From: Prauserella isguenensis
GTDB lineage: Bacteria; Actinomycetota; Actinomycetes; Mycobacteriales; Pseudonocardiaceae
Length of the DNA: 64,000 nt
Reading direction: 5' to 3'
NCBI RefSeq assembly: GCF_014191605.1
Contig: NZ_JACHWU010000007.1
Span: 62,001 to 126,000, forward strand
Shown: positions 6,388 through 33,405 of the stretch, piece by piece
Layout: every line of letters begins with the position of its first letter
How positions within the stretch are numbered: position 1 is the stretch's first letter
Notes under the pieces: generated by a model
What the model saw: the letters and a program-made list of their open reading frames with translations, nothing else
What the model was told of the DNA's origin: nothing
Database searches by the model: none
Translations under genes and position numbers: made by a program

Positions 6388-6410
6388 CGTCGTGTCCTCC
6401 TTTCCGGAAC

Positions 6411-7790
6411 TCAGAGCACGAGGCCCAGCAGGAGGCAGACGCCGAGCCCGACGACGGCGAACGTGGACTGAGCGAGGGTGTAGATCTTGAACGTGCCTTT
6501 GACGGTGAATCCGAGCATCTGCTTGAAGATCCAGAAGGTGTTGTCGGTGACGTGCCCGCCGAACGCCGCTCCCGTGCCGGCGGCGAGCAGGATGAGGATC
6601 GCCGGGGCCGAGATTGTGCCCACGATCGGCGCGAGCAGCGTGGCCGCGGTGATAGCCGCCACCGACGCCGAGCCCTGTGCAAGCCGCAGCACCGCGGCGA
6701 CGATCCAGGCGAGCAGGACCGGGATGGAGGCGTTGGCGGTGAAAGCGCTGCCGAGCATGTCGCTGATACCGACCTTGTTGATCACCTCACCGAGCGAACC
6801 GGCGACGCCGGTGAAGAGCAGGATCGAACCGGAGGTCTGGGCGCCCTTGGTGATCAGGTCGTCGATGCCGTCGCGCCCCACGACCGGGACGGCGAGCACG
6901 ATGCCGATCAGCAAGCCGATGATGAGGGCGACGACGGGGCTACCGAGGAAGGCGAGGAACGGGATCGAGTTGCCTGTGACCTCGCCGATGGTGTTGATCA
7001 CGATGAGCACGATCGGGACTATGACCGGCAGCATCGCCACGAGGAGCGGCTGCTGGCGCGTCTTGACCGCCGGGCTTCGCGCTGCGCCCGGACCGTCGGA
7101 ACGCGACGTAGTGGTGTCGGCCGCGGCCACCGCGAACAACGAGTCGTCGAAGTCGGGTTCGCGGTCGGTGTCCGGGTTGAAGATCAGCCTCATCAGCCGG
7201 TCGTGCAGGAAGATGCTGCCGAGGATGAAGACGATCCCGAGCGGCAGGCCCCACAGCAGCACTGTGCCGAGCGGGACGCCCAGCGGGCCGGCGATGGTGA
7301 CGGCGGCGACGCCCGGCACGACGATCAGCAGACCCACCTCGAGCCCGATCGCGAGGGATCCGGCGAGTGTGGCCAGGCTGCGGCCCGTTCGTTTGGCGAT
7401 CGCGCCGGCGATCGGAGCGAGGATCACCAGTGCGACGTCGAAGTAGATCGCCGGGAAGACGATGCCGGAGGTGAGGCCCAGCACGTACGGCGACCGTTTC
7501 GGGCCCGCGAGAGCGAGGAACCTGTCGACCACGCGTTGCAGCGTGCCGGTGGCCGAGAGGGTCGTCCCGATCATCACGCCGAAGCCGATGATGAGGCCGA
7601 CTTCCGCCATCAGGCCGCCGAATCCGTCGGTGACAGCGCTGACGGAGTCGGCGAATCCCATGCCGCCTGCGACGCCGAGGTATAGCGCGCCGACGACCAG
7701 CGAGATGACGGGGTTGATGCGCAGCGCCACGATCATCAGCACGATGCCGATAACCGTGATGCCCAGGTGTGTCAGAAGTAAAGCGTCCAC
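6411..7790 (-). CDS. GntP-family gluconate/sugar-acid permease
   Basis: A 459-residue membrane protein, very hydrophobic throughout, with the alternating helices and re-entrant glycine-rich loops of the GntP family; a charged cytoplasmic loop falls near residues 205-240. The start is GTG (7788-7790) with GGAG just upstream. GntP proteins are proton symporters for gluconate and related aldonates, including threonate and glycerate. It lies between the SDR and the beta-hydroxyacid dehydrogenase genes on the same strand, so it is the probable entry step for the operon's substrate. Confidence 0.92.
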   Translation of the reverse strand: MDALLLTHLGITVIGIVLMIVALRINPVISLVVGALYLGVAGGMGFADSVSAVTDGFGGLMAEVGLIIGFGVMIGTTLSATGTLQRVVDRFLALAGPKRSPYVLGLTSGIVFPAIYFDVALVILAPIAGAIAKRTGRSLATLAGSLAIGLEVGLLIVVPGVAAVTIAGPLGVPLGTVLLWGLPLGIVFILGSIFLHDRLMRLIFNPDTDREPDFDDSLFAVAAADTTTSRSDGPGAARSPAVKTRQQPLLVAMLPVIVPIVLIVINTIGEVTGNSIPFLAFLGSPVVALIIGLLIGIVLAVPVVGRDGIDDLITKGAQTSGSILLFTGVAGSLGEVINKVGISDMLGSAFTANASIPVLLAWIVAAVLRLAQGSASVAAITAATLLAPIVGTISAPAILILLAAGTGAAFGGHVTDNTFWIFKQMLGFTVKGTFKIYTLAQSTFAVVGLGVCLLLGLVL

Positions 7791-7841
7791 GGGGTTCTCC
7801 GGGGGGATCGGGCGACGTTGGCCGATGGTCAGTGGAGGTCG

Positions 7842-8612
7842 TCAGTGCAGGTGGCTTCCGCCGTTGACATCGAGGGTGACGCCAGTCAGGTATGAGGAAT
7901 CCGCTGAGCAGAGGAAGGTGATGGCCGCCGCGACCTCCTCGGTCGTCGCGGTGCGGCCGACCGGAATGGCGCCGGCGATCTGTGCTTCCTGTTCGGCAGT
8001 GCTGCCGACCCGAATGTCGGTGTCCACCGCGCCGGGAGTGACCGCGTTGACGGTGACGCCGGTCGGTCCGAGCTCACGGGCCAGTGCCTTGGTGAAACCG
8101 AGGATGGCGGCCTTCGCCGCAGAGTAGGGAACCTTGCCGAAGACTCCGCCGCCGCGCTGAGCGGAGACCGACGACATGTTGACGATGCGCCCCCATCCGC
8201 TGTCGACCATCCGGGGAAGGAAAGCCTTGGTGACCAGGTAGGTCCCGGTCGCGTTGACGTCCATCACCCGGCGCCACAGGTCGAGGGTCGTGTCGAGGAA
8301 GTCGACCGGCGAGGTGATGCCGGCGATGTTGACGACGGCACCGATCTCGGGCAGCCGGCCGGCCGTGACCTCGGCGGTCACTGCGTCCCGTGCTGCGTCG
8401 ACCGCGGTCTCGTCGGCGACGTCCACTGCGTGTCCGAACGCGGCTACGCCGTGCTCGGAGGCGATGGACTTCGCCACTACCTCCGCCTGGTCCCCGGCCA
8501 GGTCGAGGACCACGACAGCCCAGCCTTCGCGGGCGAAGCGTCGCGCAGTGGCGATGCCGATTCCGTTATCGCTGCTCGCTCCGGTGATGACGGCGGTGCG
8601 CTGCGGACTCAT
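7842..8612 (-). CDS. Short-chain dehydrogenase/reductase (SDR), first gene of the sugar-acid operon
   Basis: This 256-residue classical SDR has a glycine-rich cofactor loop ('TGASSDNGIGIATA', residues 9-22), the 'NIAG' structural motif near residue 91, a catalytic serine in 'NMSSVSAQRGG' near residue 146 and the YxxxK pair in 'YSAAKAA' near residue 160. An acidic residue after the second strand ('VVLDLAG') points to NAD(H). It is the promoter-proximal gene, read from AAGGAGCACC-ATG, and probably oxidises an alcohol or sugar-acid hydroxyl upstream of the transketolase step. Confidence 0.92.
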   Translation of the reverse strand: MSPQRTAVITGASSDNGIGIATARRFAREGWAVVVLDLAGDQAEVVAKSIASEHGVAAFGHAVDVADETAVDAARDAVTAEVTAGRLPEIGAVVNIAGITSPVDFLDTTLDLWRRVMDVNATGTYLVTKAFLPRMVDSGWGRIVNMSSVSAQRGGGVFGKVPYSAAKAAILGFTKALARELGPTGVTVNAVTPGAVDTDIRVGSTAEQEAQIAGAIPVGRTATTEEVAAAITFLCSADSSYLTGVTLDVNGGSHLH

Positions 8613-10053: not shown

Positions 10054-11139
10054 TCAGGTGACTTGGACGCCCCGAGCCGTCAGATGCTGCCGAGATATCG
10101 GTGCGTCATGCTCCAGCTGGATCCGGGGTATGCCGAGATCGGCCAGGACAGCCGCGACAAGAGCGGCAGGAGCGTCGGCGGCACTGGACGAGTGGCCGAA
10201 CAGTCCGAACTCGTGTCTGGCGCGTAGATATACCAGCACGCCGTCGTCTTGAGCGGTCGTGGAGACTGCGGCATCCAGATTGGCACGGCACGCACATGCG
10301 CTGCTTCCGAGTAGGTCTCCGATTGCGCATCCGATATGCACGGACAGGCGTGGTGGTTCGGCCGCGAGGTCGCCGTGGATCGCGAGGTGTTCGACACCGT
10401 GTAGACGGTCCCGGTACTCCACGACCGACACGTCTCCGTGCGGGGTTGTGAGCTTCCCACGCGGTCTGGCTGTGATCCCTGCGGCGGGCACGATTCCGCC
10501 GCAACGGCTTCCGAACCATGCGTCGTTGATATCGACGACGGGAAGTCCGTACCGGTCTGCCAGCGCGGCGATCTCTGGCTGCCCGGGTGTCGTCGAGCCG
10601 GCCGGTCCCTCGGCCCCTTCGACAAGGCCTGCGGTCAGGCCGACCGGAGGGAGGTCGGCCTCGCGGCACAGCCGGATTGCGGCCGTGTCCGGCGTAGGCC
10701 CAGCGGTGGGCCCGACACGGACGGGGAGCACGTGGCCGGGGCGACACAGTGTCTCCGGGCCCGAATCAGGGTCCGCGAGGACCCGAGCTGTCCGAGCGCG
10801 ATCGCGAGCACTGATGCCGGTGCCGATCCCGTTCGCCGCATCGACGGACACGGCGTAGGATACTGTCGCAGGATCTTGGTTCTCGCGCACCATGGCCGGA
10901 AGGTAGAGCGCGTCGGCACGGTCGACGGGCATGGGGGTCCGCAACAGGCCGGACGTGTGCCGGACGATCCAGGCCACCTGCTCGGTCTCGGCCAGAGCAG
11001 CAGGCAGGAGCACATCGGCGACCTCGGGACGCTCGTCGTTGACCAGTAGAACGGGGCCTCCTGACCGTAGCGCGGTAACCGAAGAAGCGATACTGGACGG
11101 TTCCGGAGCAGAGATCGGCCGCTCGAGCTGAGCCGTCAC
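10054..11139 (-). CDS. Degenerate RibBA-like protein (DHBP synthase-like + GTP cyclohydrolase II-like)
   Basis: A 361-residue protein whose GTG start overlaps the stop of the flavin reductase gene (GTGA). Residues about 20-205 resemble RibB: 'GISARDRA' (108-115) and 'RPGHVLP' (133-139) are kept. The acidic DREDE-type loop is altered (NDERPEVAD), and the GHTEA histidine segment is replaced by 'GPTPDTAA'. Residues about 225-361 resemble GTP cyclohydrolase II; the zinc triad spacing C-x10-C-x-C is intact (Cys271, Cys282, Cys284), but the EGRGIGL catalytic/GTP segment reads 'RARHEFGLF'. It therefore probably no longer makes riboflavin precursors. As the last gene of a flavin-monooxygenase operon it may be a repurposed zinc hydrolase, a flavin-related scaffold or a sensor. 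Confidence 0.75.
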   Translation of the reverse strand: MTAQLERPISAPEPSSIASSVTALRSGGPVLLVNDERPEVADVLLPAALAETEQVAWIVRHTSGLLRTPMPVDRADALYLPAMVRENQDPATVSYAVSVDAANGIGTGISARDRARTARVLADPDSGPETLCRPGHVLPVRVGPTAGPTPDTAAIRLCREADLPPVGLTAGLVEGAEGPAGSTTPGQPEIAALADRYGLPVVDINDAWFGSRCGGIVPAAGITARPRGKLTTPHGDVSVVEYRDRLHGVEHLAIHGDLAAEPPRLSVHIGCAIGDLLGSSACACRANLDAAVSTTAQDDGVLVYLRARHEFGLFGHSSSAADAPAALVAAVLADLGIPRIQLEHDAPISRQHLTARGVQVT

Positions 11140-11660
11140 GATGCAGCTTCCAATTCGGACAGGGTGTGGAACCGGCTCGCGTGGAACACGAGTGGGCCGC
11201 ACTGTGGCTGGACTCCGTGTTCGTGCACTCGGAACAGCACGAACTCGTGATCTCCGGCGGGAACGGCTCGTTCGATCGAGCAGTCCAGCCACGCGGTCGC
11301 GCCCTGCAGTAGGAGCGCGCCGTCGTCGGTGGCATGCCAGTCCAGTCCTGCGAATCGGTCACCGGTTTTTGCGGCGAGTTGGCGGCACGTCAGGTCCTGT
11401 GAGGCGGCGAGCACCGACAGTCCCAACCGAGGCCTGTGCGCCAGCCGCGGCCACGTTGTGGACGTGTACTGCACGCACACGCCGACCAGTGGCGGATCGA
11501 GCGAGACACCCACGAACGAACTGGCAGCCAACCCGATCGGAGTTCCGTCGGCGTCAAGCGCACAGACGGCTGTCACACCGCTCGGAAACCGGGCGAACGT
11601 CGCGCGCACGGCATCGGTGTCGACCGTTCCGTTCGGTGCGACGGTCGTGCTCAGACTCAT
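11136..11660 (-). CDS. Small flavin reductase (reductase partner of the LLM oxygenase)
   Basis: This 174-residue FMN-binding split-barrel protein (PF01613 type) shows the family core 'FARFPSGVTAVCALDADG' near residue 25 and '[17 protein letters not shown]' near residue 47. It would use NAD(P)H to make reduced flavin for the monooxygenase encoded in the same operon. I start it at ATG 11660, preceded by GAAAGG. The gene follows the aldehyde dehydrogenase by 11 bases and overlaps the RibBA-like gene. In the trigonelline system the equivalent partner is TgnA. Confidence 0.88.
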   Translation of the reverse strand: MSLSTTVAPNGTVDTDAVRATFARFPSGVTAVCALDADGTPIGLAASSFVGVSLDPPLVGVCVQYTSTTWPRLAHRPRLGLSVLAASQDLTCRQLAAKTGDRFAGLDWHATDDGALLLQGATAWLDCSIERAVPAGDHEFVLFRVHEHGVQPQCGPLVFHASRFHTLSELEAAS

Positions 11661-11671
11661 GAGTTTTCCTT

Positions 11672-13198
11672 TCAGGAGCGCAGGACGAACGGGTCGCCGG
11701 CGGGTTCGTCGCTGGTGTTGATCCAGACGCTCTTCAACCGTGTGTACTCCCGAATCACCTCGGAGCCGTGCTCGACGCCGAGTCCGGAAGCCTTGAACCC
11801 GGACCGCGGCGACATCGGTGACATGGCGCGGTACATGTTGACCCAGATGGTCCCTGCGTCGAGTGCGCCTGCGGCACGGTGTGCGCGTGAGAGATCCGTG
11901 GTCCAGACACCCGCGGCCAGGCCGTAGGCCGTGTCGTTCGCGAGCTGCAGAGCCTCTGCGTCGGCGTCGAAAGGCATGATCGCGACGACCGGGCCGAAGA
12001 TCTCTTCCCGGCACAATCGGGCGTCGTTCGGCAGGTCGGTGAACACGGTGGGCTCGTGGAACCAGCCGCCGAGCCCGACCTTGGGACGCCTGCCGCCGTG
12101 CGCGACCTGACCACCCTCGGCGCGCCCTGCAGCGACGTAATCCTCCACTTTGGCCAGTTGCGCACGCATGGCGAGTGGTCCCAGCTCGGTCTCGGGCGCC
12201 AAGGGGTCGCCGATCCGGATGGTCCGTGCCCTCCCGACGACCCGTTCGACGAGCTCGTCGTAGACACTGCGGTGGGCGAACACCCGGCTACCCGCAATGC
12301 AGGTCTGACCGGCGGCGGCGAAGATCCCCGCGATCACCCCGTTCGCGGCACTCGCCACATCGGCGTCGCCGAACACCAGCTGCGGCGATTTGCCTCCCAG
12401 CTCCAAACCCGCACGGATCAACCGCCTGCCGGCGCGTTCGGCGATCCACGCTCCGGTCGCGGTGCTGCCGGTGAAGGACAGTTTCGCGACGTCGGGGTGA
12501 TCCACCAGCCGCGCTCCCGCCTCGTCACCCATGCCGGTCACGACGTTGACGACGCCCGGTGGAAAGCCTGCCTCCTCGAACAGTGGCGCAAGCGCCAGCA
12601 TCGAGGCACTGGTGTGTTCCGACGGTTTCACCACGGCCGTGTTGCCCGCGGCCAACAATGGGGCGAGTTTCGCCACTGTCAGCGTCAGCGGTGAGTTCCA
12701 CGGCGTGATCGCGCCGACGACGCCCACCGGTTCCCGGCTCGTGTAATTGAGGACGTCGACATTGCTCGCGGGAATCGTTTCGCCGTGAATCTTGTCCGCG
12801 AGACCGGCGTAGTAATGGAAATACTCGGGCAAGCTCGCCAGCTGCGCCGTCATCTCACGGAGCAGCTTGCCGTTGTCGGTCGACTCCATGCGCGCGAGAC
12901 GATCGGCGTTTTCGCCGACCAGCTCACCGACGCGGCGCAGCAGGGCGCCGCGCGCCGTCTGCGACATCCTGCGCCAGTGCGGCGACTCGAATGCACTCCG
13001 CGCGGCTGCTACGGCACGGTCGACGTCGGCGGCTGTGCCGCGCGCGGCCTCGTACCAGGCCTCGCCGGTAGTGGGGTTGTCGCTGGCGAAGTAGCGGCCG
13101 TCGGCCGGAGCGGTCTCCTTTCCCGCAATATGGTGTTCCCACCGTGGCAGGCGTGCGGAACCGGTGGACGACGACTGGGCAGCAGCTGTGGTGCTCAT
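11672..13198 (-). CDS. Aldehyde dehydrogenase (TgnC-like by context)
   Basis: The 508-residue NAD(P)+-dependent dehydrogenase has the catalytic glutamate in 'LELGGKSP' near residue 265, the nucleophilic cysteine in 'AAGQTCIAGSR' near residue 300 and 'EEIFGPVV' near residue 400. Its ATG overlaps the stop of the upstream hydrolase gene (ATGA). In a two-component flavin ring-opening pathway this enzyme would oxidise the semialdehyde or hydroxylactone formed when the heteroaromatic ring is split. Family membership is secure; the substrate is inferred from neighbours. Confidence 0.93.
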   Translation of the reverse strand: MSTTAAAQSSSTGSARLPRWEHHIAGKETAPADGRYFASDNPTTGEAWYEAARGTAADVDRAVAAARSAFESPHWRRMSQTARGALLRRVGELVGENADRLARMESTDNGKLLREMTAQLASLPEYFHYYAGLADKIHGETIPASNVDVLNYTSREPVGVVGAITPWNSPLTLTVAKLAPLLAAGNTAVVKPSEHTSASMLALAPLFEEAGFPPGVVNVVTGMGDEAGARLVDHPDVAKLSFTGSTATGAWIAERAGRRLIRAGLELGGKSPQLVFGDADVASAANGVIAGIFAAAGQTCIAGSRVFAHRSVYDELVERVVGRARTIRIGDPLAPETELGPLAMRAQLAKVEDYVAAGRAEGGQVAHGGRRPKVGLGGWFHEPTVFTDLPNDARLCREEIFGPVVAIMPFDADAEALQLANDTAYGLAAGVWTTDLSRAHRAAGALDAGTIWVNMYRAMSPMSPRSGFKASGLGVEHGSEVIREYTRLKSVWINTSDEPAGDPFVLRS

Positions 13199-13968
13199 GA
13201 TGTGGTGTCTCCAGCAACGGCGAAGGGTCGAGTTTCGATCTGTGCGAGGACGGCTGCGGTGACCATGTCCGGACGTTCCAACGGCAGGAGGTGGCGCGCT
13301 CCCGGAACGGCCGCCGAGCGGCCGTTCGGTACGCGAGAGGCCACGGCTGCGGACATGCGAGGTGTCGATCCCGGATCGTCGGCTCCGGTGATGGCCAGCA
13401 CCGGCGCAAGCAGGTCCGGTAGTTCCGGCCACACCTCGGCGTCCGCTTCGGCGAAAATCCGGTAGCAGGCGAGGTAGCTCGCCGGCCGGTTGGCCGCGAG
13501 TACCGCACGGGTCTCCGCCGCCAACCGCGGTTCGGCTCGGCGCCACCGCGGCGAGAACCAGCGATCGATCGCGGCGTCGAACGTCGCGGCCAGGTCGGAT
13601 TCGGCGTCGGCCAGGCGTCGGTCCACGGCGGCGCGTTCCTCGGGGCGTCGGTCGGCCACCCCGCTGACGAGTGTCAACGACGACACCTCGTCCGGGCGGT
13701 CGAGTGCCACGCGGGTGGCCACGAGTGCGCCCAGTGAGAATCCGACCAGGTGGGCCCGACTAGGCAGCGAGCCGAGTAGGCCCGTGATCGGTGCGGCGAG
13801 ATCCGCGAGCGTGGTGCCGTCGTCGGCGTCGGACGCGGTTCCGTGCCCCAGCAGATCCGGGGTGTGCACTCGCTGCGCGGAGGCTGACAGGGGGCCGGCG
13901 ACACGTCGCCACATCGTGTGGTCGAGTCCCACACCGTGCAGCAGGACGACATCGGCCGGCATGCTCAC
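13195..13968 (-). CDS. Alpha/beta hydrolase (TgnD-like by context)
   Basis: This 257-residue single-domain hydrolase has 'LLHGVGLDHTMW' (oxyanion region, residues 9-20), the nucleophile elbow 'GFSLGA' (serine near residue 95), an aspartate in 'ITGADDPG' near residue 203 and the catalytic histidine in 'GARHLLPLE' near residue 230. Its ATG overlaps the stop of the upstream PF06684 gene and its own stop overlaps the aldehyde dehydrogenase start. In the proposed pathway it would hydrolyse an N-formyl enamide or lactone ring-opening product. Confidence 0.9.
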   Translation of the reverse strand: MSMPADVVLLHGVGLDHTMWRRVAGPLSASAQRVHTPDLLGHGTASDADDGTTLADLAAPITGLLGSLPSRAHLVGFSLGALVATRVALDRPDEVSSLTLVSGVADRRPEERAAVDRRLADAESDLAATFDAAIDRWFSPRWRRAEPRLAAETRAVLAANRPASYLACYRIFAEADAEVWPELPDLLAPVLAITGADDPGSTPRMSAAVASRVPNGRSAAVPGARHLLPLERPDMVTAAVLAQIETRPFAVAGDTTS

Positions 13969-14519
13969 TGCTCCGAGGTCAGCGGGGCAAGCCGGGCCTG
14001 CGGACGGCCCTGCGCGGCGGCGGCGAGCCCGATGACGATCTCGTTCGCACGGGGCCCGTCCGGCATCCGTGCCTCGACCGTCTGGTGGTGCGAGCGGATC
14101 GTCGCATCGGTGACGTGCTTGAGGGGGATGTCGAACGTCGAGCCTGCGGCGGCACGCTTCTCCACCGCGGGAAGCAAAGTCGTCGCCTGTGCGGCGTCGC
14201 GGAAGTGGTTGCCGAACTTGAGTGTGTGGATCAGACCGGAGCCGTGCTCGATCTCGCCGTCCAGCCCGACGATCGCGGCCTTTCCGTAGGCTTCGACCGG
14301 AGTGCCGAGAGCGCCGACCACGCGGTCGCTCAGCAGTTTGCCCAGCTGTGGTGCGACTTCGTCGATGAGGGGCTGGAGATCCTGGACGAAGCCCTTATCG
14401 GCCCAGGGATTCTCGACGGCGGCGAGCACGACCGCGATCCTGGCGGGCGGGTCGACCTGCTTGCCCCCTTCGATGTGGGTTTCGTCGACGATCGTGTGGA
14501 TGGCGCGGACGGTGCTCAT
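13965..14519 (-). CDS. PF06684 (DUF1185, 'amino acid synthesis') family protein, paralogue 1
   Basis: A 184-residue protein with the family's hallmark run 'YGKAAIVGLDGEIEHGSGLI' near residue 78 and 'HHQTVEARMPDGPRANEIVI' in the C-terminal part. Published structures of the family show a chorismate-mutase-like fold of unknown reaction. It overlaps both neighbours by four bases and shares the same motif order with the next gene upstream, so the pair probably arose by duplication and may form a hetero-oligomer. It is not part of the TgnABCD set as I know it. Confidence 0.85.
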   Translation of the reverse strand: MSTVRAIHTIVDETHIEGGKQVDPPARIAVVLAAVENPWADKGFVQDLQPLIDEVAPQLGKLLSDRVVGALGTPVEAYGKAAIVGLDGEIEHGSGLIHTLKFGNHFRDAAQATTLLPAVEKRAAAGSTFDIPLKHVTDATIRSHHQTVEARMPDGPRANEIVIGLAAAAQGRPQARLAPLTSEQ

Positions 14520-15139
14520 GGCAGTGGCTCCTTCTCAGCAGCGACGGGATGACCGGTCAGGATGTGATCGGCGAGCGCGGTGTCGGTGCGCCGGTCGCCG
14601 ATGCGTGCGTTCGGACGAGGTCCGTCCGACGCCGCGGCGATCACCGCGATCTCGTCGGGCCGCGGCGCATCGGGCACCCGAACCGGAACGGTCTGGTAGT
14701 GCGACCGGGTGGACGCGTGATTCTTGTGCCAGATCGGGACCGGCAGGGAAGTTCCGGCCCCGGATCGTTGATCGGCGAAGACGATGATCGATTCGCCGTC
14801 CGTGCGCCTCCGCAGCACGTCGCCGAAGTACGGTGTGTGGATCAGTGCGCCGGCATGCTCGATTTCTCCGTTCACACCGACCAGGGCGGCCTTCCCGAAC
14901 GCCTCGACGTGTTCGGCGCCGCCCAGCGCCGAGACCAGTCGGTCCGACAGGGCGTGTGCGATCTCCGGGGCGAGCGCCGACACCTCTGCGGACAGGTCGT
15001 TCAGGACCCCGCGGCCGACCCATGGGTTGGACACGACGGCGACGGCTGCGACGCGGCGCACCGGCACTCGGACCGGCTCTCCCGCCTCGTGCAGCGGTTC
15101 GTCGGTCACCGTGACGATCCGGCGGATACTCCCACTCAC
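14516..15139 (-). CDS. PF06684 (DUF1185) family protein, paralogue 2
   Basis: This 207-residue paralogue of the previous gene shows 'FGKAALVGVNGEIEHAGALI', 'THTPYFGDV'-type and 'HYQTVPVRVPDAPRPDEIAV' segments in the same order. The GTG start at 15139 overlaps the stop of the LLM oxygenase gene (GTGA). Extra basic sequence is found at the C-terminus relative to paralogue 1. No catalytic residue can be named. Tandem retention inside a tightly overlapping catabolic operon suggests an essential step, perhaps isomerisation or hydrolysis of an intermediate. Confidence 0.84.
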   Translation of the reverse strand: MSGSIRRIVTVTDEPLHEAGEPVRVPVRRVAAVAVVSNPWVGRGVLNDLSAEVSALAPEIAHALSDRLVSALGGAEHVEAFGKAALVGVNGEIEHAGALIHTPYFGDVLRRRTDGESIIVFADQRSGAGTSLPVPIWHKNHASTRSHYQTVPVRVPDAPRPDEIAVIAAASDGPRPNARIGDRRTDTALADHILTGHPVAAEKEPLP

Positions 15140-16269
15140 GCCGGGTTCTCCGCGAACTGGGGCATGACCTTCTCGGTGAACAGCTCGAAACTGCGCATCA
15201 CCTTGCCGTGGTCCATGCCGGGGTGCGTAGTCCACAACAGCAGGTCCTGCAGGTTCAGTTCCTGCTGCAGCTCGTGAACCTTCTCGGCCACGTAGTCGGG
15301 CGTGCCCACGAGAAGGTTGCGCTCGGCGAGGAAATCGTAGTCCAGCTCGCGGCCCGTGATGTCCTCACCGACCTCACGCATATTGCCGAGGCCTCGCCAG
15401 TGACACACCCAACGATACGAGGTGAGGAGCGCTTCCTCGAAGTCCGCGCGGGCCTGTTCCATCGTGTCCGCCACGTAGACGTCGCGGACGAGCGACAGCC
15501 CGGTGCCCAGTTCCTGTTCGACGCCGGTGGCCTCCGACAGCGTGTCGCGGTAGAGCTCGAACCGGCCCTTCAGCTCGGAGACGGGTGGCATCCAGAACAT
15601 GCCGTTCATGCCGGCTCTGGCCGCACTCTGGATCGACCGAGGGCTGTCGATGACCTGGGACAGCGGCGGGTGAGGGTCCTGGAACGTGTTCGGCACGACC
15701 TTCATGGCGGAGATCGTGCCGTCGTCGCCGACGAATTCCGGGGAGGCTGGCGAGAGTGGATGGTCCCAGGACACACCCGGCGCTGGGTACTGGTGGAACC
15801 GTCCGTTGTGGGAGAAGAAGTCGCCGCTCCACGCCTTGCGGAGGATGTCGATCGTCTCCTCGAACAGCTCGCGGTTCTGTTCCTGGTCCCGAGGGTCGGC
15901 GAGCGGGTTGAGGTTCATCGCCTCCCGGCCGTACAGACCGCGTCCGACACCGACCTCGACGCGTCCGCGGGAGAGCTGGTCGAGCATCGCGATGTCCTCG
16001 GCGAGGCGCATCGGATTCCAGAACGTGACGATGTTGGCCGCTTGCCCGATGCGAATACGGGAGGTGCGCGCCGCGATGTCGGCTCCGACCATGAGCGGAT
16101 TCGGGACGAGTTCGAAGCCCTCGTGTCCGAAGTGGTGCTCGGTGTACCAGATGGAGTGGTAGCCCGCGTTGTCGGCGAACGTCGCGATCTCTCGGACCTC
16201 GTCGAGGACTGTCGCGACGTCGCCGAGCCGCCCCGGCGCTCCGATGTTGTGAAAGATCGAGAACCGCAT
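15136..16269 (-). CDS. LLM-class flavin-dependent monooxygenase (TgnB-like by context)
   Basis: This 377-residue luciferase-like TIM-barrel oxygenase has 'YTEHHFGHEGFELVPNPLMVGADIA' landmarks near residues 45-70, 'VEVGVGRGLYGREA' near residue 115 and 'SYRWVCHWRGLGNMREVGED' near the C-terminus. I choose ATG 16269, which follows GGAAGGAAG. It begins one base after the GntR gene. Together with the flavin reductase it would form a two-component oxygenase that inserts oxygen into a pyridinium-type ring and opens it. The family also includes alkane and pyrimidine monooxygenases, so the substrate rests on context. Confidence 0.9.
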   Translation of the reverse strand: MRFSIFHNIGAPGRLGDVATVLDEVREIATFADNAGYHSIWYTEHHFGHEGFELVPNPLMVGADIAARTSRIRIGQAANIVTFWNPMRLAEDIAMLDQLSRGRVEVGVGRGLYGREAMNLNPLADPRDQEQNRELFEETIDILRKAWSGDFFSHNGRFHQYPAPGVSWDHPLSPASPEFVGDDGTISAMKVVPNTFQDPHPPLSQVIDSPRSIQSAARAGMNGMFWMPPVSELKGRFELYRDTLSEATGVEQELGTGLSLVRDVYVADTMEQARADFEEALLTSYRWVCHWRGLGNMREVGEDITGRELDYDFLAERNLLVGTPDYVAEKVHELQQELNLQDLLLWTTHPGMDHGKVMRSFELFTEKVMPQFAENPA

Positions 16270-16270
16270 G

Positions 16271-16972
16271 TCACACTTCCTTCCGCAGCGGCGTGCCTCC
16301 GGCGAGAGGGTCGTCGGCGGCGAGGGTCGCCCGTTCACTGGAACGGACGTGGTCACGCATGGCGAATTCGGCTCCGAAGCCGTCCTTCTCCTGAATCAGC
16401 TCCAGCACGTTCCGGTGCTCTGCCAGCGACGCGCCGAGTCGGCCGGGCCGGGTCAGCGATGCGGATACCAGCCGGTGGTAGGCGAGCTGGTTCATGAGCG
16501 TCCGGTAGTGCGATTCCAGTTGTGAGTTGTCGGCCCCGACGACGAGCAGTTCGTGGAAGCCGTGTACGAGGCGCGCGTAATCCTCGGTGTCGCCCTGTGC
16601 CACGGCCCGCCCGGAGCGCTCGAGGTTGTCCTCGATCTCGTCCAGGACGGGCACCGGCCCGCGGGCGGCCAACAGTCGTGCGGCCATGCCTTCGAGCATC
16701 TCCTTGAGCTCGAACAGCTCCACGACTTCGCGCCGACTCGGGGAACGGACGAACGTGCCGACTCGTGCGCGGACCTCGACCAGTCCTTCGATCTGGAGCT
16801 GCTTGAGCGCTTCTCGAACCGGAGTCCGGGACACGTCGTACTCGGCGGCGAGGGCGAGTTCGGAGAGTGGCTCGCCGGGAGCGTGCCGACCTTCGATGAT
16901 CGCGCTCCGCACACCGGCCAGAACCCGCGCCTGCGCCCCGTTCCGCCCGACAACCTCGGTAGGTTCTTGCAT
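16271..16972 (-). CDS. GntR-family (FCD) regulator of the LLM oxygenase operon
   Basis: The 233-residue regulator has an N-terminal winged helix ('AAEYDVSRTPVREALKQLQIEG', residues 42-63) and a C-terminal FCD domain ('LVHGFHELLVVGADNSQLE'). It is the first gene of the operon, so regulator and enzymes share one transcript. A 14-base perfect palindrome covers its own start codon, and a related TTGCATGC site precedes the divergent BCCT gene. Autoregulated, ligand-released repression of both units is the simplest reading. Four FadR-type GntR genes or remnants lie in this window. Confidence 0.9.
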   Translation of the reverse strand: MQEPTEVVGRNGAQARVLAGVRSAIIEGRHAPGEPLSELALAAEYDVSRTPVREALKQLQIEGLVEVRARVGTFVRSPSRREVVELFELKEMLEGMAARLLAARGPVPVLDEIEDNLERSGRAVAQGDTEDYARLVHGFHELLVVGADNSQLESHYRTLMNQLAYHRLVSASLTRPGRLGASLAEHRNVLELIQEKDGFGAEFAMRDHVRSSERATLAADDPLAGGTPLRKEV

Positions 16973-16978
16973 GCAAGA
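16965..16978. promoter_or_regulatory. Palindromic GntR operator over the regulator start codon
   Basis: TCTTGCATGCAAGA is a perfect 14-base palindrome that includes the ATG of the GntR gene (16970-16972 on the minus strand). FadR-type regulators commonly bind such sites. Binding here would block the operon directly. Confidence 0.6.
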
Positions 16979-17107
16979 GAAGCTACGGCGGATCCCTGTA
17001 CGGCGTCAAGATGTCTACCTTCCTACGCTTGCCGCCGCTGAAAACTCCCAATTTCCGGGTAACGAGGGTCTTTCGTACTTTCCGGGTTGGCATTGACCAG
17101 TCGTCAG

Positions 17108-17117
17108 CTTGCATGCC
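17108..17117. promoter_or_regulatory. Second, imperfect copy of the GntR operator upstream of the BCCT gene
   Basis: CTTGCATGCC lies 91 bases before the BCCT start and shares the TTGCATGC core with the palindrome at 16965-16978. It suggests that transporter and enzymes answer to the same regulator. Confidence 0.4.
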
Positions 17118-17207
17118 ACATTGACGCGTCATGCGCACTCCCGGAACCGGGATGCGGCGCGGACGCTCCTTCCCGCGGTCCCACGGAGAATCTCGACGGA
17201 GACAACG

Positions 17208-18809
17208 ATGTCCGATTTCTTGACCGTGCCGCCGGTTCGCCGGCGTCCCGGACCTGTCCTGTACGTCTCGCTCACGCTGGCCCTGGCGATCGTCGTCTGG
17301 GGCGCTGTCGCGAGTGACTCGCTTGCGGTAGCGGGTGCCACGGCTCTCGACGGGATCACGCGCGGGCTCGGGTGGGCTTACTTGGCGGCGTCGCTCGGCT
17401 TCCTCGTGTTCCTTCTCGTGCTGGCATGCAGCCGGTATGGCCGGTTGCGTTTGGGAAAGGACGACGATCGACCGGCGTTCCGTCGTGTCACCTGGTACGC
17501 GATGATCGTCTCAGCCGTCATGGGGATCGGCCTGGTCTCCTACGGGGTGGCGGAACCGATCAGCCACCTCGCTGCCCCGCCTCACGGGCTCGCAGCACCG
17601 ATGACCTCCGGCGCGGCGGTCACGGCGATGCAGTTCTCGTTCTTCGACTGGGGGTTGCATGCCTGGGGCATCTTCGCCGTCGTCGGGCTGGCTATGGCGT
17701 GGTCGATGTTCCGCCGGGGGCGGCCCGGGCTCGTCAGCGCGCTGTTGCGCCCGTTACTGGGGCGCCGTGTGGAGGGAGCTGCGGGTAAAGGAGTCGACGT
17801 GTTCGCCGTCATCGCGACGTTGTTCGGCACCACGACTTCCCTCGGCCTCGGGGCTCTGCAGATCAACGGAGGGCTGACGAGTCTGTTCGGCATCCCGAAC
17901 TCGCTGCCGGTGCAGTTCGCCATCATCGTGGTCATCACGTTGTTGTTCACCGCGTCGGCCTTGACCGGTGTCGCCAAGGGGATTCGCTATCTGTCCGAGG
18001 CGAGCATGGGGCTCGGTGGGGCCTTGTTCGTGTTCGTCCTCATCGTCGGCCCGACCATCTACTTGGCGAACCTGTACGTGGAGTCGGTCGGCCGGTACCT
18101 CAGCGAGCTCGTCGCGACCAGCCTCATCACGCCGGCGAGCGGAGACCTGGGCTTCATGCAGAACTGGACGTACTTCATGCTCGCGTGGTGGCTGTCGTGG
18201 GCGGCCTTCGTCGGGGTCTTTCTGGCCCGTATCTCGCGGGGACGGACAGTGCGCGAGTTCGTTACCGGGGTGCTGCTCGTGCCGACTGTGGTGTTCACGG
18301 CGTGGTTCACGGCCTTCGGTGGTACGGCGATCAATCGCGACATGGGTGGCGAGACGGCGATCGGGGCCGCAGCCGCGGAGGACACGAACGCTGCCTTCTT
18401 TGCGACTCTCGACTCGCTGCCGCTGACCGCCATCACATCGATCGTGACGATCCTGCTGGTGATCGTGTTCTTCGTATCCGGAGCCGACGCGAACACGTAC
18501 GTACTCGGCATGCTAACCAGCCACGGCACGGAGCAACCGTCGCGCCGAGTGCTGGCGCTCTGGGGTGCCGTGACCGGGGCGGCAGCCATCGCTCTGTTGG
18601 CGGCCGGCGGGCTGGAGTCACTACAGCAGATGGTGATTGTTAGCTCGGCACCATTCCTCGTCATCGTGGTCGCCGTCGCGGTGGCGTTCGCTAAGGACCT
18701 GATGTCCGAGGGGCCCCAGGTCGGCGCGCCGGTATCGCCGAGCCGGCCCGCCACGCCAGTCGAGTTGTCCGGGTCCGAGCTGCCCGAGGTGGCGACTTCC
18801 CGGGAATAG
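17208..18809 (+). CDS. BCCT-family betaine/choline/carnitine-type transporter
   Basis: The 533-residue, 12-helix secondary transporter has the glycine-rich 'MGIGLVSYGVAEPISH' segment of the substrate site near residue 105 and the family signature-like 'NWTYFMLAWWLSW' near residue 319. I start it at ATG 17208 after CGGAGA. BCCT proteins import trimethylammonium and other betaines with sodium or protons. It is divergent from the LLM oxygenase operon, which suggests that the operon's substrate is a quaternary ammonium or pyridinium betaine such as trigonelline. Confidence 0.93.
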   Translation: MSDFLTVPPVRRRPGPVLYVSLTLALAIVVWGAVASDSLAVAGATALDGITRGLGWAYLAASLGFLVFLLVLACSRYGRLRLGKDDDRPAFRRVTWYAMIVSAVMGIGLVSYGVAEPISHLAAPPHGLAAPMTSGAAVTAMQFSFFDWGLHAWGIFAVVGLAMAWSMFRRGRPGLVSALLRPLLGRRVEGAAGKGVDVFAVIATLFGTTTSLGLGALQINGGLTSLFGIPNSLPVQFAIIVVITLLFTASALTGVAKGIRYLSEASMGLGGALFVFVLIVGPTIYLANLYVESVGRYLSELVATSLITPASGDLGFMQNWTYFMLAWWLSWAAFVGVFLARISRGRTVREFVTGVLLVPTVVFTAWFTAFGGTAINRDMGGETAIGAAAAEDTNAAFFATLDSLPLTAITSIVTILLVIVFFVSGADANTYVLGMLTSHGTEQPSRRVLALWGAVTGAAAIALLAAGGLESLQQMVIVSSAPFLVIVVAVAVAFAKDLMSEGPQVGAPVSPSRPATPVELSGSELPEVATSRE

Positions 18810-19290: not shown

Positions 19291-19806
19291 TCAGCCGATG
19301 GTGGGCTGGTCGAGCCAGAGATGGTCGCCCCGTAGGAAGACCAGGGGCTCGCGGTGGAAGTTGTTGTAGCGCATGACTTCCCCGACGAGCAGGACGTGGT
19401 CCCCGCTGGGGATCTGATGTGCGATACGAGTTTCGAACCGCGCGGCGCACCCGTCGAGCAGGGGCGCACCGCCCAGGCCTTCAGTGACTGTCAGGCCGTC
19501 GAACTTGTCGTCGGCCGGTTTGGCGAAGCGCCGGGATAGGTCTTCCTGGTGCCAGGCGAGCACGTTCACGGCGAAGTGTCTCGCGTCGTGGAACACGGAC
19601 AGGCTTGGTGAGTCGGTTCGCAGCGCCCACAGCACGAGAGGCGGGTCGAGCGAGACCGAGGCGAACGAGTTCGCGGTGACCCCGACCCGGGTGTTGGCGT
19701 GCGCGGCGGTCATGACCGTGATGCCGGTGGGGAAGCAGCCGAGCGCGCGCCGATAATGCCGCGGGTCGTCTGCCGGGAGCAGCGGCCGTTCCTCGAGAGT
19801 CGTCAT
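19291..19806 (-). CDS. Flavin reductase, StyB-like partner of the adjacent monooxygenase
   Basis: A 171-residue split-barrel flavin reductase with 'LGCFPTGITVMTAAHANTRV' near residue 23 and '[17 protein letters not shown]' near residue 46. Its ATG overlaps the stop of the StyA-like gene (ATGA), so the two components are made together. It would deliver reduced FAD to that epoxidase-type monooxygenase. It is one of four small flavin reductases in this window. Confidence 0.9.
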   Translation of the reverse strand: MTTLEERPLLPADDPRHYRRALGCFPTGITVMTAAHANTRVGVTANSFASVSLDPPLVLWALRTDSPSLSVFHDARHFAVNVLAWHQEDLSRRFAKPADDKFDGLTVTEGLGGAPLLDGCAARFETRIAHQIPSGDHVLLVGEVMRYNNFHREPLVFLRGDHLWLDQPTIG

Positions 19807-21098
19807 CCCTTCCCTCCCGCCGCGCTCAGGTCGGCGCGCCCGCGCAGTCGCAACTCGTGGCGTGCGCGTGCCTCCGCGAGGTACCGCGTGGTCAATTCCG
19901 GGTCGTAGAAGAAGCTCTCCAGGTCGGAGGGGTCATTGAAGGCGTTGGCGAAGCGGTGGGCGACTTCCGGCACCTGCGTCGCGGTGGCGAGCAGCTCCAT
20001 CGCGTGCTCGGGCGGGGCGGAGCCCGGGTTGTTGAAGGCCAGCATCGTGTTCGTGAACTTCGTGGGGTACTGGGCCTGGTCCCAGAACCGGTCGAAGGTG
20101 GCCTGCATCCAGGTCTCGTCGAACGGTTGTGAGCCACGGTCGAGGATCAGCCGATGCATGACCTCGGCGTGCGTACTCGCGTTGTTGGCGCCCTGACCGC
20201 AACACGGGTCGTTGAGCACGAGGACATCAGCCATGCCGACCACCTTCCGGCCGGATGGCAGCAGGGCGATCGGCTCACGCACCAGCGGGGGCACGGCTCC
20301 GCACAACCATCCGTTCGGGTCCGAGATGTGGGCCTCGGTGTAGCGCGCCATTTCCCAGGGGAAGAAGTCGGCGAACGTGCGTTTCGTCAGCTCCAGCATC
20401 TCCTCGGCCGTAGTGGCCTGGGACCAGCGATCCATGGGGCCGCCGGGCAGAGCCTCCATCACCCAGGTGACGGCTGGTCCGGCGGCGGTGAGCATCGGGA
20501 TTCCGAACGCCTCACCGACCCCGGGCCGGATGTTGTAGGAGACGCCGTCGGGTGCCGGGTGCTCGGTGTTGATGAGCGAGATCATGCCGATCGAGCGTTG
20601 CGGGCGCTGATAGGTCGTCCGTGTCTGGTCGACAGAGAAGATCTTGGCGATCTCGCCCTTGCCTGCGGCGACGATTGTGAGGTCGTTGACCGCCGCGATC
20701 TCGTCGAGACCTGCCAGGTCGACCGCACCGTAGACGATCTTGCCCCCGCGACCGGCGAATGCCTCGAGCCAGGTGCTGAACTTCAACCGCTGGTCGACCG
20801 ACTGCCCGTACTGGGCGAATCGGCCGGTGAACTCGACGGCGAGGTGACCCTCGGGGTCGGTGAGCTTGGCATCCGTCTGTTCGATCAGCGGCGGCTCGCC
20901 GTCCCAGAAACAGATATCGAGAGCGCGCTCGCGAGCGACCGCACGTCCGAAGAGGCCGTTGCTCGAAGGCAGGCGGCCGGCGGCGATCTGCTCCGGAGTG
21001 CGGTCGGAGTACACCGTGACCTCATACCCGTCGCTGAGCAAGCCGAACGCGAGCTGCAGCCCACCTTGGCCGGCACCGATGATGGCGATCGAACGCAC
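19803..21098 (-). CDS. StyA-like FAD-dependent monooxygenase (styrene/indole epoxidase family)
   Basis: The 431-residue protein begins with an FAD-binding Rossmann motif ('AIIGAGQGGLQLAFGLL', residues 4-20) and has 'VLVLNDPCCGQGANNASTHA' near residue 300, in the position of the family's second flavin-contact motif. I use the GTG at 21098 because a full AAGGAGGT lies four bases upstream. Proteins of this family take reduced FAD from a separate reductase and epoxidise vinyl or indole-type double bonds. The flavin reductase follows with an ATGA overlap and a LuxR-type regulator gene precedes it on the same strand. Confidence 0.88.
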   Translation of the reverse strand: MRSIAIIGAGQGGLQLAFGLLSDGYEVTVYSDRTPEQIAAGRLPSSNGLFGRAVARERALDICFWDGEPPLIEQTDAKLTDPEGHLAVEFTGRFAQYGQSVDQRLKFSTWLEAFAGRGGKIVYGAVDLAGLDEIAAVNDLTIVAAGKGEIAKIFSVDQTRTTYQRPQRSIGMISLINTEHPAPDGVSYNIRPGVGEAFGIPMLTAAGPAVTWVMEALPGGPMDRWSQATTAEEMLELTKRTFADFFPWEMARYTEAHISDPNGWLCGAVPPLVREPIALLPSGRKVVGMADVLVLNDPCCGQGANNASTHAEVMHRLILDRGSQPFDETWMQATFDRFWDQAQYPTKFTNTMLAFNNPGSAPPEHAMELLATATQVPEVAHRFANAFNDPSDLESFFYDPELTTRYLAEARARHELRLRGRADLSAAGGKG

Positions 21099-21183
21099 GT
21101 CTACCTCCTTGTAGGTGTGGATCCGCATTGCGGATCGCGTCTGTTCACAAGGATGTGACTCCGTTCAGGTCAGGAGATCCGGG

Positions 21184-21222: not shown

Positions 21223-23541
21223 TCACGTGGTGGGTTCGCGGGTGGTCGCCCACACCGCGATCTCGGCGCGTGATCGGAAACCGAGCTTGGCGAGAATGTG
21301 CTCGACATGCCCTTCGACGGTGCGGTGGGACAAGACGAGCCGGGCGGCGATGTCCCGGTTGCTGAGGCCCTTGCCGACCAGCGCCGCGACCTCGCGCTCG
21401 CGCCGGGTCAGGGTTATCGGTTCCGGCGAGGCTGGTGCGACGTCCGCGTCATCGCTGTAGGTGCGGGCGAGAATGTCGAGATAGGTACACACCTGGGCGT
21501 AGTTGAAACCTGCGGCTTCCCGATGCGCTTGCTGGAACTTCGCGGCGCCCAGCGCTGCGCGGGCCCGCGCAGCGGCCTGGCCGCGGAGGTTGGCGAGTTG
21601 CGGACCGAAAGCCTGTAGGTCGGTTCCGACCTTGCGCCACGCCGTCTCGGCCAGGCCCAGGAGTGTGGCGCCCTCATGATGGCGGCCTGCTGCCACCGAG
21701 GCGACAGCGAGTACCTCGAACACGAGTACGATCCCGAGCTGGTTGTCCAGCGGCATGCTCAATTCGAGGCTCTGACATCCGGCTGTGATCGCATCCTCGA
21801 GCCGGCCCTCGGCCACGGCGACGTGCGCGCGGGTCCACAGTGCGTAGGAGTGGGCCCAGTCGTCGCCGATGGTGGTGCTGCCAGCCACCGCTTCGTCGCA
21901 CAGCCGGTGCGCTTCGGTCGGGTTACCGAGCAACGCGTGGGTCAGTGCGAGCTGGAACAGCGACATGAGCAGGCCTTCAGCCGAACCTTCCGTGCGGTGC
22001 CCGGCCGCCGCCGCGGTGAAGTGCTCCACGGCGGCGTCGAGATCGCCTTGGAACAGGGCAAGCGATCCCTGCCAGGTGGCGCAGAAGCTGCGGGTGTGCG
22101 GGTCCGCGGCGGCCTTGAGGCTCGCGCATTCGTCCAGGCGGTCTCGTGTTGCGTCCTGGTCGCCCTGCAGGAGGGCAACCCAGGCGCAGGACCACAACGC
22201 CTCCACGCGTTCCGGGCACGCCGTGGTGTGAGCGGCGAGCGCCTGTTCCAGACGCCGCCGGCCTTCCTGCAAGTGGCCGCCCATCACCCACAGAATCCGT
22301 AATCGGGCGGCGAGTGCCAGAGCGTTCCGTTGCGCCTGCTTGTCATCGTCACCGCCGAACGAGTCGAGCGCCGTGCCGAAGTTGGGCAGTTCGGTCGTCA
22401 AATGCGCGAGGTGACGTGCTTGGTCCGGGCCCCAGAACGCGGCGCCGGCCCGGTTGGCCAGCTCGAGGAAGTGCTCGCGGTGGCGGTGTCGCAGCGTCTG
22501 CTCCTCGCCTCTGGCGTGTAGCCGTTCCCGGCCGTACTCGCTGATCGACTCCAGCATCCGATACCGCAGTCCACAGGGCGTCGTCTCGGTGATGAGAATG
22601 GATTTGGCGACAAGTGCATCGAGGGTATCCACCACGTCGGTGGATTCGTGGTCTGCGCAGATCGCCTCGACCGACGCCAGATCGGTGCTCTCGGTGAACA
22701 CCGACATCCGCGCCCAGAGGCGTTGCTCGTCCGGTGAACACAACTCGTGGCTCCACTCGACCAGCGCCCGGAGTGTGCGGTGTTGTGGGAGATCCGTCGG
22801 ATCGCCGCCGCCGAGTATCCGGAAGCGGTCGCTGACCCGCTCGAGCAGTTCGCGAAGGGACAGCGAGCGCAAACGGGCGGCGGCGAGTTCGATGGCCAGC
22901 GGGAGCCCGTCGAGCCGCCGCACCAGTTGTGCCACCAGGTCGATGCTCTCGTCGGTCAGCCGGTAGTGGGAACTGATCGCGCTGGCGCGTTCGTCGAGCA
23001 ACTGGATCGCCGGATAGCGGCTCGCGTCCTGCACCCGCAGCGCGGCGTCGGGGTCCGGGGCCACCAGAGGGCGTACTTCGACGACGCGCTCACCGCTGAT
23101 GCCCAGCGCCTGACGGCTCGCGGTCAGGAAACGCACTCCCGGCGCCATGCTCAGTACGCGGGCAACGAAGGCCTGGCAACCACTGAGGACGTGTTCACAG
23201 TTGTCCAACACGACCAGCATGTCCCGGTCCATGAGGCTGGCCACGAGGTGGTCCACGACGTTGGTCGTCGAGAATTTCATTGCCAGCGCATTGACCACTG
23301 CTTGCGCCACTTGTGCCGGGTCGGTCAGGTGAGCCAAGGACACGAACCAGGCGCCGTCCGGAACCTCGCTGTCGAGCACTCGCGCAGTCTCAACAGCCAG
23401 GCGCGTCTTGCCCACGCCCCCAGGGCCGGCCAAGGACACGAGGCGACACTGTGCCAGCGACTCCCGCACGGCCGACAGTTCGTCGTCACGGCCGACGAAA
23501 CTCGTCACTTGGGCGGGTACACGCCCCGCAGCCCCGCTCAT
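21223..23541 (-). CDS. Large ATPase-type LuxR-family transcriptional regulator
   Basis: This 772-residue regulator combines an NTPase module (Walker A 'GPGGVGKTRLA' near residue 38; Walker B 'MLVVLDNCEHV' near residue 108), a long helical repeat-like middle that probably senses a ligand or partner, and a C-terminal LuxR helix-turn-helix ('LTRREREVAALVGKGLSNRDIA' followed by 'SHRTVEGHVEHILAKLG'). The layout matches actinobacterial MalT/AfsR-like activators. It is encoded directly upstream of, and on the same strand as, the StyA/StyB-like pair, which makes that pair its most likely target. Confidence 0.93.
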   Translation of the reverse strand: MSGAAGRVPAQVTSFVGRDDELSAVRESLAQCRLVSLAGPGGVGKTRLAVETARVLDSEVPDGAWFVSLAHLTDPAQVAQAVVNALAMKFSTTNVVDHLVASLMDRDMLVVLDNCEHVLSGCQAFVARVLSMAPGVRFLTASRQALGISGERVVEVRPLVAPDPDAALRVQDASRYPAIQLLDERASAISSHYRLTDESIDLVAQLVRRLDGLPLAIELAAARLRSLSLRELLERVSDRFRILGGGDPTDLPQHRTLRALVEWSHELCSPDEQRLWARMSVFTESTDLASVEAICADHESTDVVDTLDALVAKSILITETTPCGLRYRMLESISEYGRERLHARGEEQTLRHRHREHFLELANRAGAAFWGPDQARHLAHLTTELPNFGTALDSFGGDDDKQAQRNALALAARLRILWVMGGHLQEGRRRLEQALAAHTTACPERVEALWSCAWVALLQGDQDATRDRLDECASLKAAADPHTRSFCATWQGSLALFQGDLDAAVEHFTAAAAGHRTEGSAEGLLMSLFQLALTHALLGNPTEAHRLCDEAVAGSTTIGDDWAHSYALWTRAHVAVAEGRLEDAITAGCQSLELSMPLDNQLGIVLVFEVLAVASVAAGRHHEGATLLGLAETAWRKVGTDLQAFGPQLANLRGQAAARARAALGAAKFQQAHREAAGFNYAQVCTYLDILARTYSDDADVAPASPEPITLTRREREVAALVGKGLSNRDIAARLVLSHRTVEGHVEHILAKLGFRSRAEIAVWATTREPTT

Positions 23542-28852: not shown

Positions 28853-28881
28853 GCGCCACGCATACGAAGGACTGTTCAACG

Positions 28882-31418: not shown

Positions 31419-31473
31419 GGGCTGTTCGCAGCGCAGAAATGCCGACTTTCTCGCAATGACGTGAGGAGACATC

Positions 31474-33375: not shown

Positions 33376-33405
33376 ACCGCCGGTCCGTCAAGAATGGAGA
33401 ACGCC

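Follow-up and report, generated by a model that had tools for sequence, protein, structure and literature searches.

Genes and promoter sites at the locus

We analysed a 64,000-nucleotide stretch of Prauserella isguenensis DNA (contig NZ_JACHWU010000007.1; hereafter the window). Its minus strand carries an operon encoding a GntR regulator, a luciferase-like (LLM) flavin-dependent oxygenase, two proteins of family PF06684 (AA_synth/DUF1185), an alpha/beta hydrolase, an aldehyde dehydrogenase (ALDH), a flavin reductase and a RibBA-like protein, and a BCCT carrier gene diverges from it. The locus is probably a locally regulated catabolic operon of the tgn type for trigonelline or another N-methylpyridinium carboxylate, that is, a known kind of pathway with a different oxygenase and importer. 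A Pfam profile search confirmed all nine genes and their families. The compact, overlapping operon divergent from a BCCT gene that an earlier sequence-only reading described is therefore borne out, with a corrected BCCT start. The features are as follows.

16972-16271, minus strand: GntR/FCD-family regulator, first gene of the operon (PF00392 and PF07729; 57% identity with GntR from the tgn-type cluster on Arthrobacter pDCT5)
16269-15136, minus strand: LLM flavin-dependent oxygenase, predicted ring-opening enzyme of a non-TgnB clade (PF00296)
15139-14516, minus strand: PF06684 protein 1 (AAS1), TgnF-like (194.7 bits, cut-off 27)
14519-13965, minus strand: PF06684 protein 2 (AAS2), TgnF-like (194.5 bits, cut-off 27)
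13968-13195, minus strand: alpha/beta hydrolase, TgnD-like, predicted N-formyl-enamide hydrolase (PF12697)
13198-11672, minus strand: ALDH of the TgnC clade (PF00171)
11660-11136, minus strand: flavin reductase of 174 aa, predicted partner of the LLM (PF01613)
11139-10054, minus strand: RibBA-like protein with catalytic residues lost (PF00926 and partial PF00925)
17208-18809, plus strand: BCCT carrier of 533 aa, predicted importer of a quaternary-nitrogen substrate (PF02028)
16967-16976, unstranded: operator-like palindrome (C)TTGCATGCAA(G) over the GntR start codon (pattern match)
17109-17118, unstranded: a further operator-like site, TTGCATGCCA, ahead of the BCCT gene (pattern match; at the same place in loci L053, L055 and L057)

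Five of the seven operon junctions are 4-base overlaps (LLM/AAS1, AAS1/AAS2, AAS2/hydrolase, hydrolase/ALDH and flavin reductase/RibBA-like), and the remaining two are gaps of 1 base (GntR-LLM) and 11 bases (ALDH-flavin reductase). We placed the BCCT start at ATG 17208, which has a GGAG Shine-Dalgarno sequence, because TTG 17109 sits within the GntR operator-like site. A genome-wide search found two PF06684 copies in the 4.95-Mb genome, both in this operon. The order GntR-LLM-AAS1-AAS2-hydrolase-ALDH is retained in the relatives' loci that were inspected, down to 67-72% LLM identity. Because both PF06684 copies lie here and the gene order is kept, the operon is not a chance arrangement.

In the window, the pattern TTGCATGCMA matches three times, at two sites of the divergent promoter, where 0.05 matches are expected, and the rest of the genome has none. 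Orthologous loci share the motif, and pDCT5 carries it upstream of GntR (L006, 3544-3553); proteobacterial tgn-type loci carry TGGTATACCA or TGGCATACCA at the corresponding promoter. From these sites we infer that GntR may control both arms of the divergent unit.

LLM orthologues that are 68-98% identical occur in 19 of 392 genomes of the host family, in 9 of 47 genera, and this patchy spread fits horizontal transfer. The PF06684 family is present in 23 of 397 genomes in a sample of the phylum. Compared with the relative genome G513, the enzyme and carrier genes have omega values of 0.13-0.32, which indicate purifying selection on the operon. A literature search with slight reach into subscription papers found no report of this actinobacterial variant.

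The downstream cassette and its oxygenases

The tgn reference was the annotated locus of Acinetobacter sp. PK01 (L151), which was reached through plasmid searches and used in place of A. baylyi ADP1. This locus encodes GntR, a PF06684 protein, an alpha/beta hydrolase, tgnA, tgnB, tgnC, an NCS1 permease and a succinate semialdehyde dehydrogenase (SSADH). The tgn clusters of A. baylyi and PK01 share with the window a GntR, a PF06684 protein (TgnF), a hydrolase at the TgnD position, a flavin reductase (TgnA), an LLM at the TgnB position, a TgnC-clade ALDH and a dedicated importer. In both, the divergent promoter also has an operator-like palindrome, TGGTATACCA in the tgn reference and TTGCATGCAA in the window. 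The window differs in having an LLM of another clade, a duplicated PF06684 gene, a BCCT rather than an NCS1 carrier, an added RibBA-like gene, no SSADH gene in the operon and a short flavin reductase (174 aa compared with 310 aa).

In a quick maximum-likelihood tree, the ALDH joins the TgnC clade with an SH-aLRT value of 99. The 15 other ALDHs of the genome and the pyr-type ALDHs of Arthrobacter crystallopoietes fall outside that clade in the same tree. The window's ALDH is 44% identical to the annotated TgnC and 66-68% identical to the ALDHs of pDCT5 and L065. The hydrolase keeps its Ser (GFSLG), Asp and His triad and is 46-49% identical to its cassette orthologues. The flavin reductase is 36-39% identical to TgnA and its relatives. 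AAS1 is 58-65% identical to AAS1 of pDCT5 and L065 and 39% identical to its PF06684 counterpart in the Acinetobacter tgn locus, and it matches the solved structure 2qtp (E 1e-33). AAS2 is 68-69% identical to AAS2 of pDCT5 and L065. The histidine motifs EH, IHT and RSH, which belong to the histidine cluster described in PMC2954203, are kept, in AAS2 as well. Together, the downstream genes support a tgn-type pathway.

The sequence-only reading had proposed the PF06684 pair as a new part of such a pathway. PMC7913881 reports that the A. baylyi protein TgnF is a PF06684 homologue and that it stimulates the TgnE-dependent oxidation of succinate semialdehyde. The annotated tgn locus carries one PF06684 gene. 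PF06684 is thus an existing tgn component and that proposal does not stand. The authors of PMC7913881 could not show such stimulation for their own homologue, HcdD. HcdD is encoded in the Pseudomonas mandelii 7HK4 operon hcdDEFG, which resembles the window in having a PF06684 protein within a catabolic operon and differs in encoding an alcohol dehydrogenase-type reductase, a cupin and an FMN reductase, with no LLM and no TgnC.

The oxygenase differs from that of the reference. The LLM is 25% identical to the annotated TgnB and 28-29% identical to other TgnB-type proteins. In a tree of 68 rows, it groups with its family orthologues, with the LLMs of L064 and L066, which likewise adjoin PF06684 genes, and with some other actinobacterial and Peribacillus LLMs. 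The TgnB-type proteins form a clade apart from this window-type clade (support 100 and 100). When the two types are constrained to group, the log-likelihood falls by 19-24 units, with P values of 0.054-0.098 in the approximately unbiased (AU) test. The types separate in the best tree, and at these values the test does not reject a deep sister relation. The sequence-only reading had taken the LLM for the counterpart of TgnB and had named clustering away from TgnB as evidence against itself; because the LLM falls outside the TgnB clade, that evidence is now partly in hand.

The same cassette also occurs with the other oxygenase. On the Arthrobacter dokdonellae plasmid pDCT5, the GntR, AAS1, AAS2, hydrolase and ALDH are 57, 58, 68, 46 and 68% identical to those of the window, yet the LLM is TgnB-type. 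L065, L235 and L236 also combine this cassette with a TgnB-type LLM. The clusters of pDCT5 (L006, L245) and of genus g252 (L235, L236) have orthologous GntR, AAS1, AAS2, hydrolase and ALDH genes, about 46-71% identical to those of the window, and pDCT5 has the same operator. They differ from the window in their TgnB-type LLM, tautomerase, NCS1 carrier and long flavin reductase; pDCT5 also has a riboflavin kinase gene and, at the end of its cluster, an NAD-dependent SSADH gene, and the g252 loci have a RibB-like gene. The small tautomerase gene lies between ALDH and LLM in L235, L236 and L006 and was unseen in actinobacterial clusters with the window-type oxygenase.

We built a cassette tree from concatenated AAS1, AAS2, hydrolase and ALDH sequences, with proteobacterial tgn-type loci as the root. 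Loci with the TgnB-type and the window-type oxygenase intermingle in this tree, with at least two oxygenase changes forced by its starred branches, and none of the bootstrap trees has a single oxygenase change. Transporter type also changes at least two times. These data indicate that the downstream cassette has exchanged both its ring-opening oxygenase and its importer. Tentatively, the window-type LLM could have been recruited independently as a second oxygenase for opening pyridinium rings, with a substrate range or a cleavage regiochemistry particular to it, and the downstream tgn genes could be a plug-in module that takes the products of unrelated oxygenases and importers; we regard this combined idea as possible but short of an even chance. 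Gene content, conservation, clade membership, swaps and operator sites are all read directly from the sequences compared.

Several further clusters combine related genes. TgnB-type LLMs are widespread in rhizobia; in L004, on Sinorhizobium medicae pSymA near noeA, one lies with GntR, PF06684, hydrolase, flavin reductase, ALDH, ABC transporter and SSADH genes. L005 (Aminobacter) and L200 (Parasedimentitalea) have a TgnB-related LLM (about 42%) with RidA, PF06684, hydrolase, ALDH and CoA-dependent degradation genes, a set that may serve another heterocyclic betaine. L152 (Agrobacterium rubi) and L199 (Rhizobium etli) encode an LLM (about 43% to the TgnB type), an ALDH, a hydrolase, a carboxymuconolactone decarboxylase-like protein, PF06684, an SSADH and an amino-acid-type ABC transporter. 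G471, a genome with the window-type cassette, has a separate LLM that is 41% identical to the pDCT5 type (L242). Its neighbours are GntR, hydrolase, flavin reductase and ALDH genes, with no PF06684 match there, and the set may be a third version.

The importer and the substrate

Quaternary ammonium compounds are substrates of BCCT carriers, and planar N-heterocycles are substrates of NCS1 carriers. The importer is a BCCT in the window and ten relatives and an NCS1 carrier in L237-L240 and L244. A substrate acceptable to both would therefore be a planar quaternary N-heterocycle, that is, a pyridinium betaine. The NCS1 carriers of window-type clusters and of TgnB-type clusters (pDCT5, L235, L236) form one intermixed family of 53-70% identity. 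The NCS1 of L240, from a window-type LLM cluster, is nearest to those of L235 and L236, from TgnB-type LLM clusters, and the sole plasmid record matching the cassette NCS1 at E 1e-40 is pDCT5. Because the importers interchange and the NCS1 carriers intermix, the two oxygenase types would share a substrate or use closely related ones, and this is our main argument on substrate.

We compared the BCCT with the aromatic box of BetP. The box Trp residues are kept, the box Tyr is changed to Phe, and a Trp neighbouring the box is Leu in the operon-linked carriers (Met in one relative). The Y to F and W to L changes are absent from the genome's four other full-length BCCTs. This pattern fits a quaternary-nitrogen ligand other than glycine betaine. 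On the Arthrobacter crystallopoietes plasmid pLDW-10 (L050), a pyridine-type LLM cluster also includes a BCCT carrier, 32% identical to the window's; a BCCT gene next to an N-heterocycle oxygenase is thus a recurrent arrangement.

Proposed pathway and alternatives

The chemistry of the tgn intermediates was drawn from annotated product names, PMC8269262 and background chemistry. The substrate, what each step does chemically, the role of PF06684 and repression are inferred. The BCCT would bring in an N-methylpyridinium carboxylate, for which trigonelline or something closely analogous is the likeliest candidate. Reduced FMN from the flavin reductase would go to the LLM, which would oxidatively open the pyridinium ring to an N-formyl-N-methyl-enamine aldehyde. 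The TgnC-clade ALDH would oxidise this aldehyde, and the TgnD-like hydrolase would then cut the N-formyl enamide to succinate semialdehyde with methylamine, formate and CO2. Succinate semialdehyde would be oxidised by an SSADH encoded outside the operon, and the two TgnF-like PF06684 proteins may aid a late step. GntR bound to the TTGCATGCAA sites would keep both arms silent when neither the substrate nor an intermediate is present. Among the flanking genes sampled in relatives, none was for methylamine or formate.

Several points weigh against this pathway. The tgn reference locus was annotated by similarity rather than by experiment, and the LLM is only 25-29% identical to TgnB-type proteins and lies in its own clade. 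The hydrolase is 30% identical to the hydrolase at the TgnD position, less than to its best own-genome paralogue (35%), so its assignment as TgnD comes from context. The operon has no SSADH (TgnE) gene. The window's SSADH-like gene (29952-31418; 563 bits, below the cut-off) lies without an operator in a homoprotocatechuate-type cluster. In favour of the pathway, an SSADH-like gene adjoins the operon in the relative G536 (TIGR01780 top match, 480 bits, below the 646 cut-off).

The same architecture could serve another substrate, with the swapped LLM attacking homarine, N-methylisonicotinate, N-methylpyridinium or N1-methylnicotinamide and the shared ALDH and hydrolase processing analogous products. 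The position of the LLM outside the TgnB clade and the Y to F and W to L changes that set the BCCT apart from the genome's four other BCCTs would both fit this explanation, and TgnAB has been argued on steric grounds to be unlikely to open homarine (PMC8269262), so another substrate could need another oxygenase. We nonetheless consider it the weaker explanation, at roughly one chance in a handful, since the ALDH and PF06684 pair are 58-69% identical to those beside TgnB-type LLMs and the NCS1 carriers of both types intermix. By our own chemical reasoning, homarine opened likewise would yield 2-oxoglutarate, yet SSADH accompanies the clusters of G536 and pDCT5. It seems improbable that the operon serves a non-pyridine compound, be it another betaine, a lactone or a derivative of an amino acid, with PF06684 in a general accessory role like the one in coumarin degradation. 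LLMs and BCCTs are broad families, and PF06684 occurs in the P. mandelii 7-hydroxycoumarin operon and, in L066, near aminotransferase, alanine dehydrogenase and amidohydrolase genes; the TgnC-clade ALDH, the cassette common to TgnB-type LLMs and the exchange with NCS1 argue against it.

Least probable of all is a pyr-type pathway in which the LLM attacks the ring of unsubstituted pyridine, yielding products that run to succinate semialdehyde. The Arthrobacter pyr cluster shares the route through an LLM, a flavin reductase and an ALDH towards succinate semialdehyde, and the pyr-like plasmid cluster of A. crystallopoietes has a BCCT gene. In the pyr cluster an amidohydrolase replaces the TgnD-like hydrolase, PF06684 is absent, and the LLM and ALDHs belong to clades separate from the window's; moreover, neutral pyridine requires no quaternary-ammonium carrier. 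We rejected this pathway because the operon has no amidohydrolase and its LLM and ALDH fall outside the A. crystallopoietes branches. The tgn-type operon for an N-heterocyclic betaine keeps the TgnC-clade ALDH, the TgnD- and TgnA-like hydrolase and reductase, the cassette shared with TgnB-type LLMs and the alternation of BCCT and NCS1 on its side. What the sequence-only reading loses is a TgnB-like oxygenase, the novelty of PF06684 and a conserved RibBA-like step.

That last protein had also been proposed as a new pathway component. Its 3,4-dihydroxy-2-butanone 4-phosphate (DHBP) synthase half has lost key residues (RENEGD to RPEVAD, GHTEA to PDTAA, CEI to AGL), and its GTP cyclohydrolase II core is shortened with three zinc cysteines kept. 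The genome encodes a second RibB with a far higher score. In L055-L057, the RibB half looks intact and the RibA half degenerate, and in more distant relatives the protein is truncated or missing; pDCT5 has a riboflavin kinase instead. The catalytic residues lost in both halves, together with this variability, rule it out as a pathway enzyme. It is probably a former flavin-supply accessory that has decayed here. Compared with G513, its dS is 0.72, against 0.02-0.13 for the other genes, with an omega of 0.29. Relaxed selection is unsupported at that omega, and the combination makes a recombined or replaced segment likelier. The dS suggests a different recombination history, and the omega suggests that constraint persists.

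Other catabolic genes lie nearby in the window. At 19291-21128 (minus strand), a StyA-like FAD monooxygenase gene (NF045732, 209 bits, below the 550 cut-off) stands directly upstream of a second flavin reductase gene; this styrene/indole monooxygenase-like two-component pair adjoins a large LuxR-type ATPase regulator (21223-23541). The homoprotocatechuate-type meta-cleavage cluster spans 24910-34803 (plus strand) and encodes an FAA hydrolase/RraA fusion, a DHDPS-like protein, HpaE (over its cut-off), a ring-cleavage dioxygenase, the SSADH-like ALDH, a phenol 2-monooxygenase-type hydroxylase and a further ALDH. At 5449-8612 (minus strand), L-threonate dehydrogenase-like, GntP-type permease and short-chain dehydrogenase/reductase genes in a row are likely a sugar-acid catabolic operon.

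Trigonelline and its relatives among the N-methylpyridinium betaines are plentiful solutes in plants and in marine settings, and few routes for breaking them down are known. A search for TgnB alone would miss actinobacterial clusters such as this one, so the set of genomic markers is widened. The duplicated PF06684 genes, which persist with either oxygenase type, lend themselves well to studying the function of that family. A conserved cassette with an exchanged oxygenase and importer offers a natural experiment on the residues that set substrate choice.

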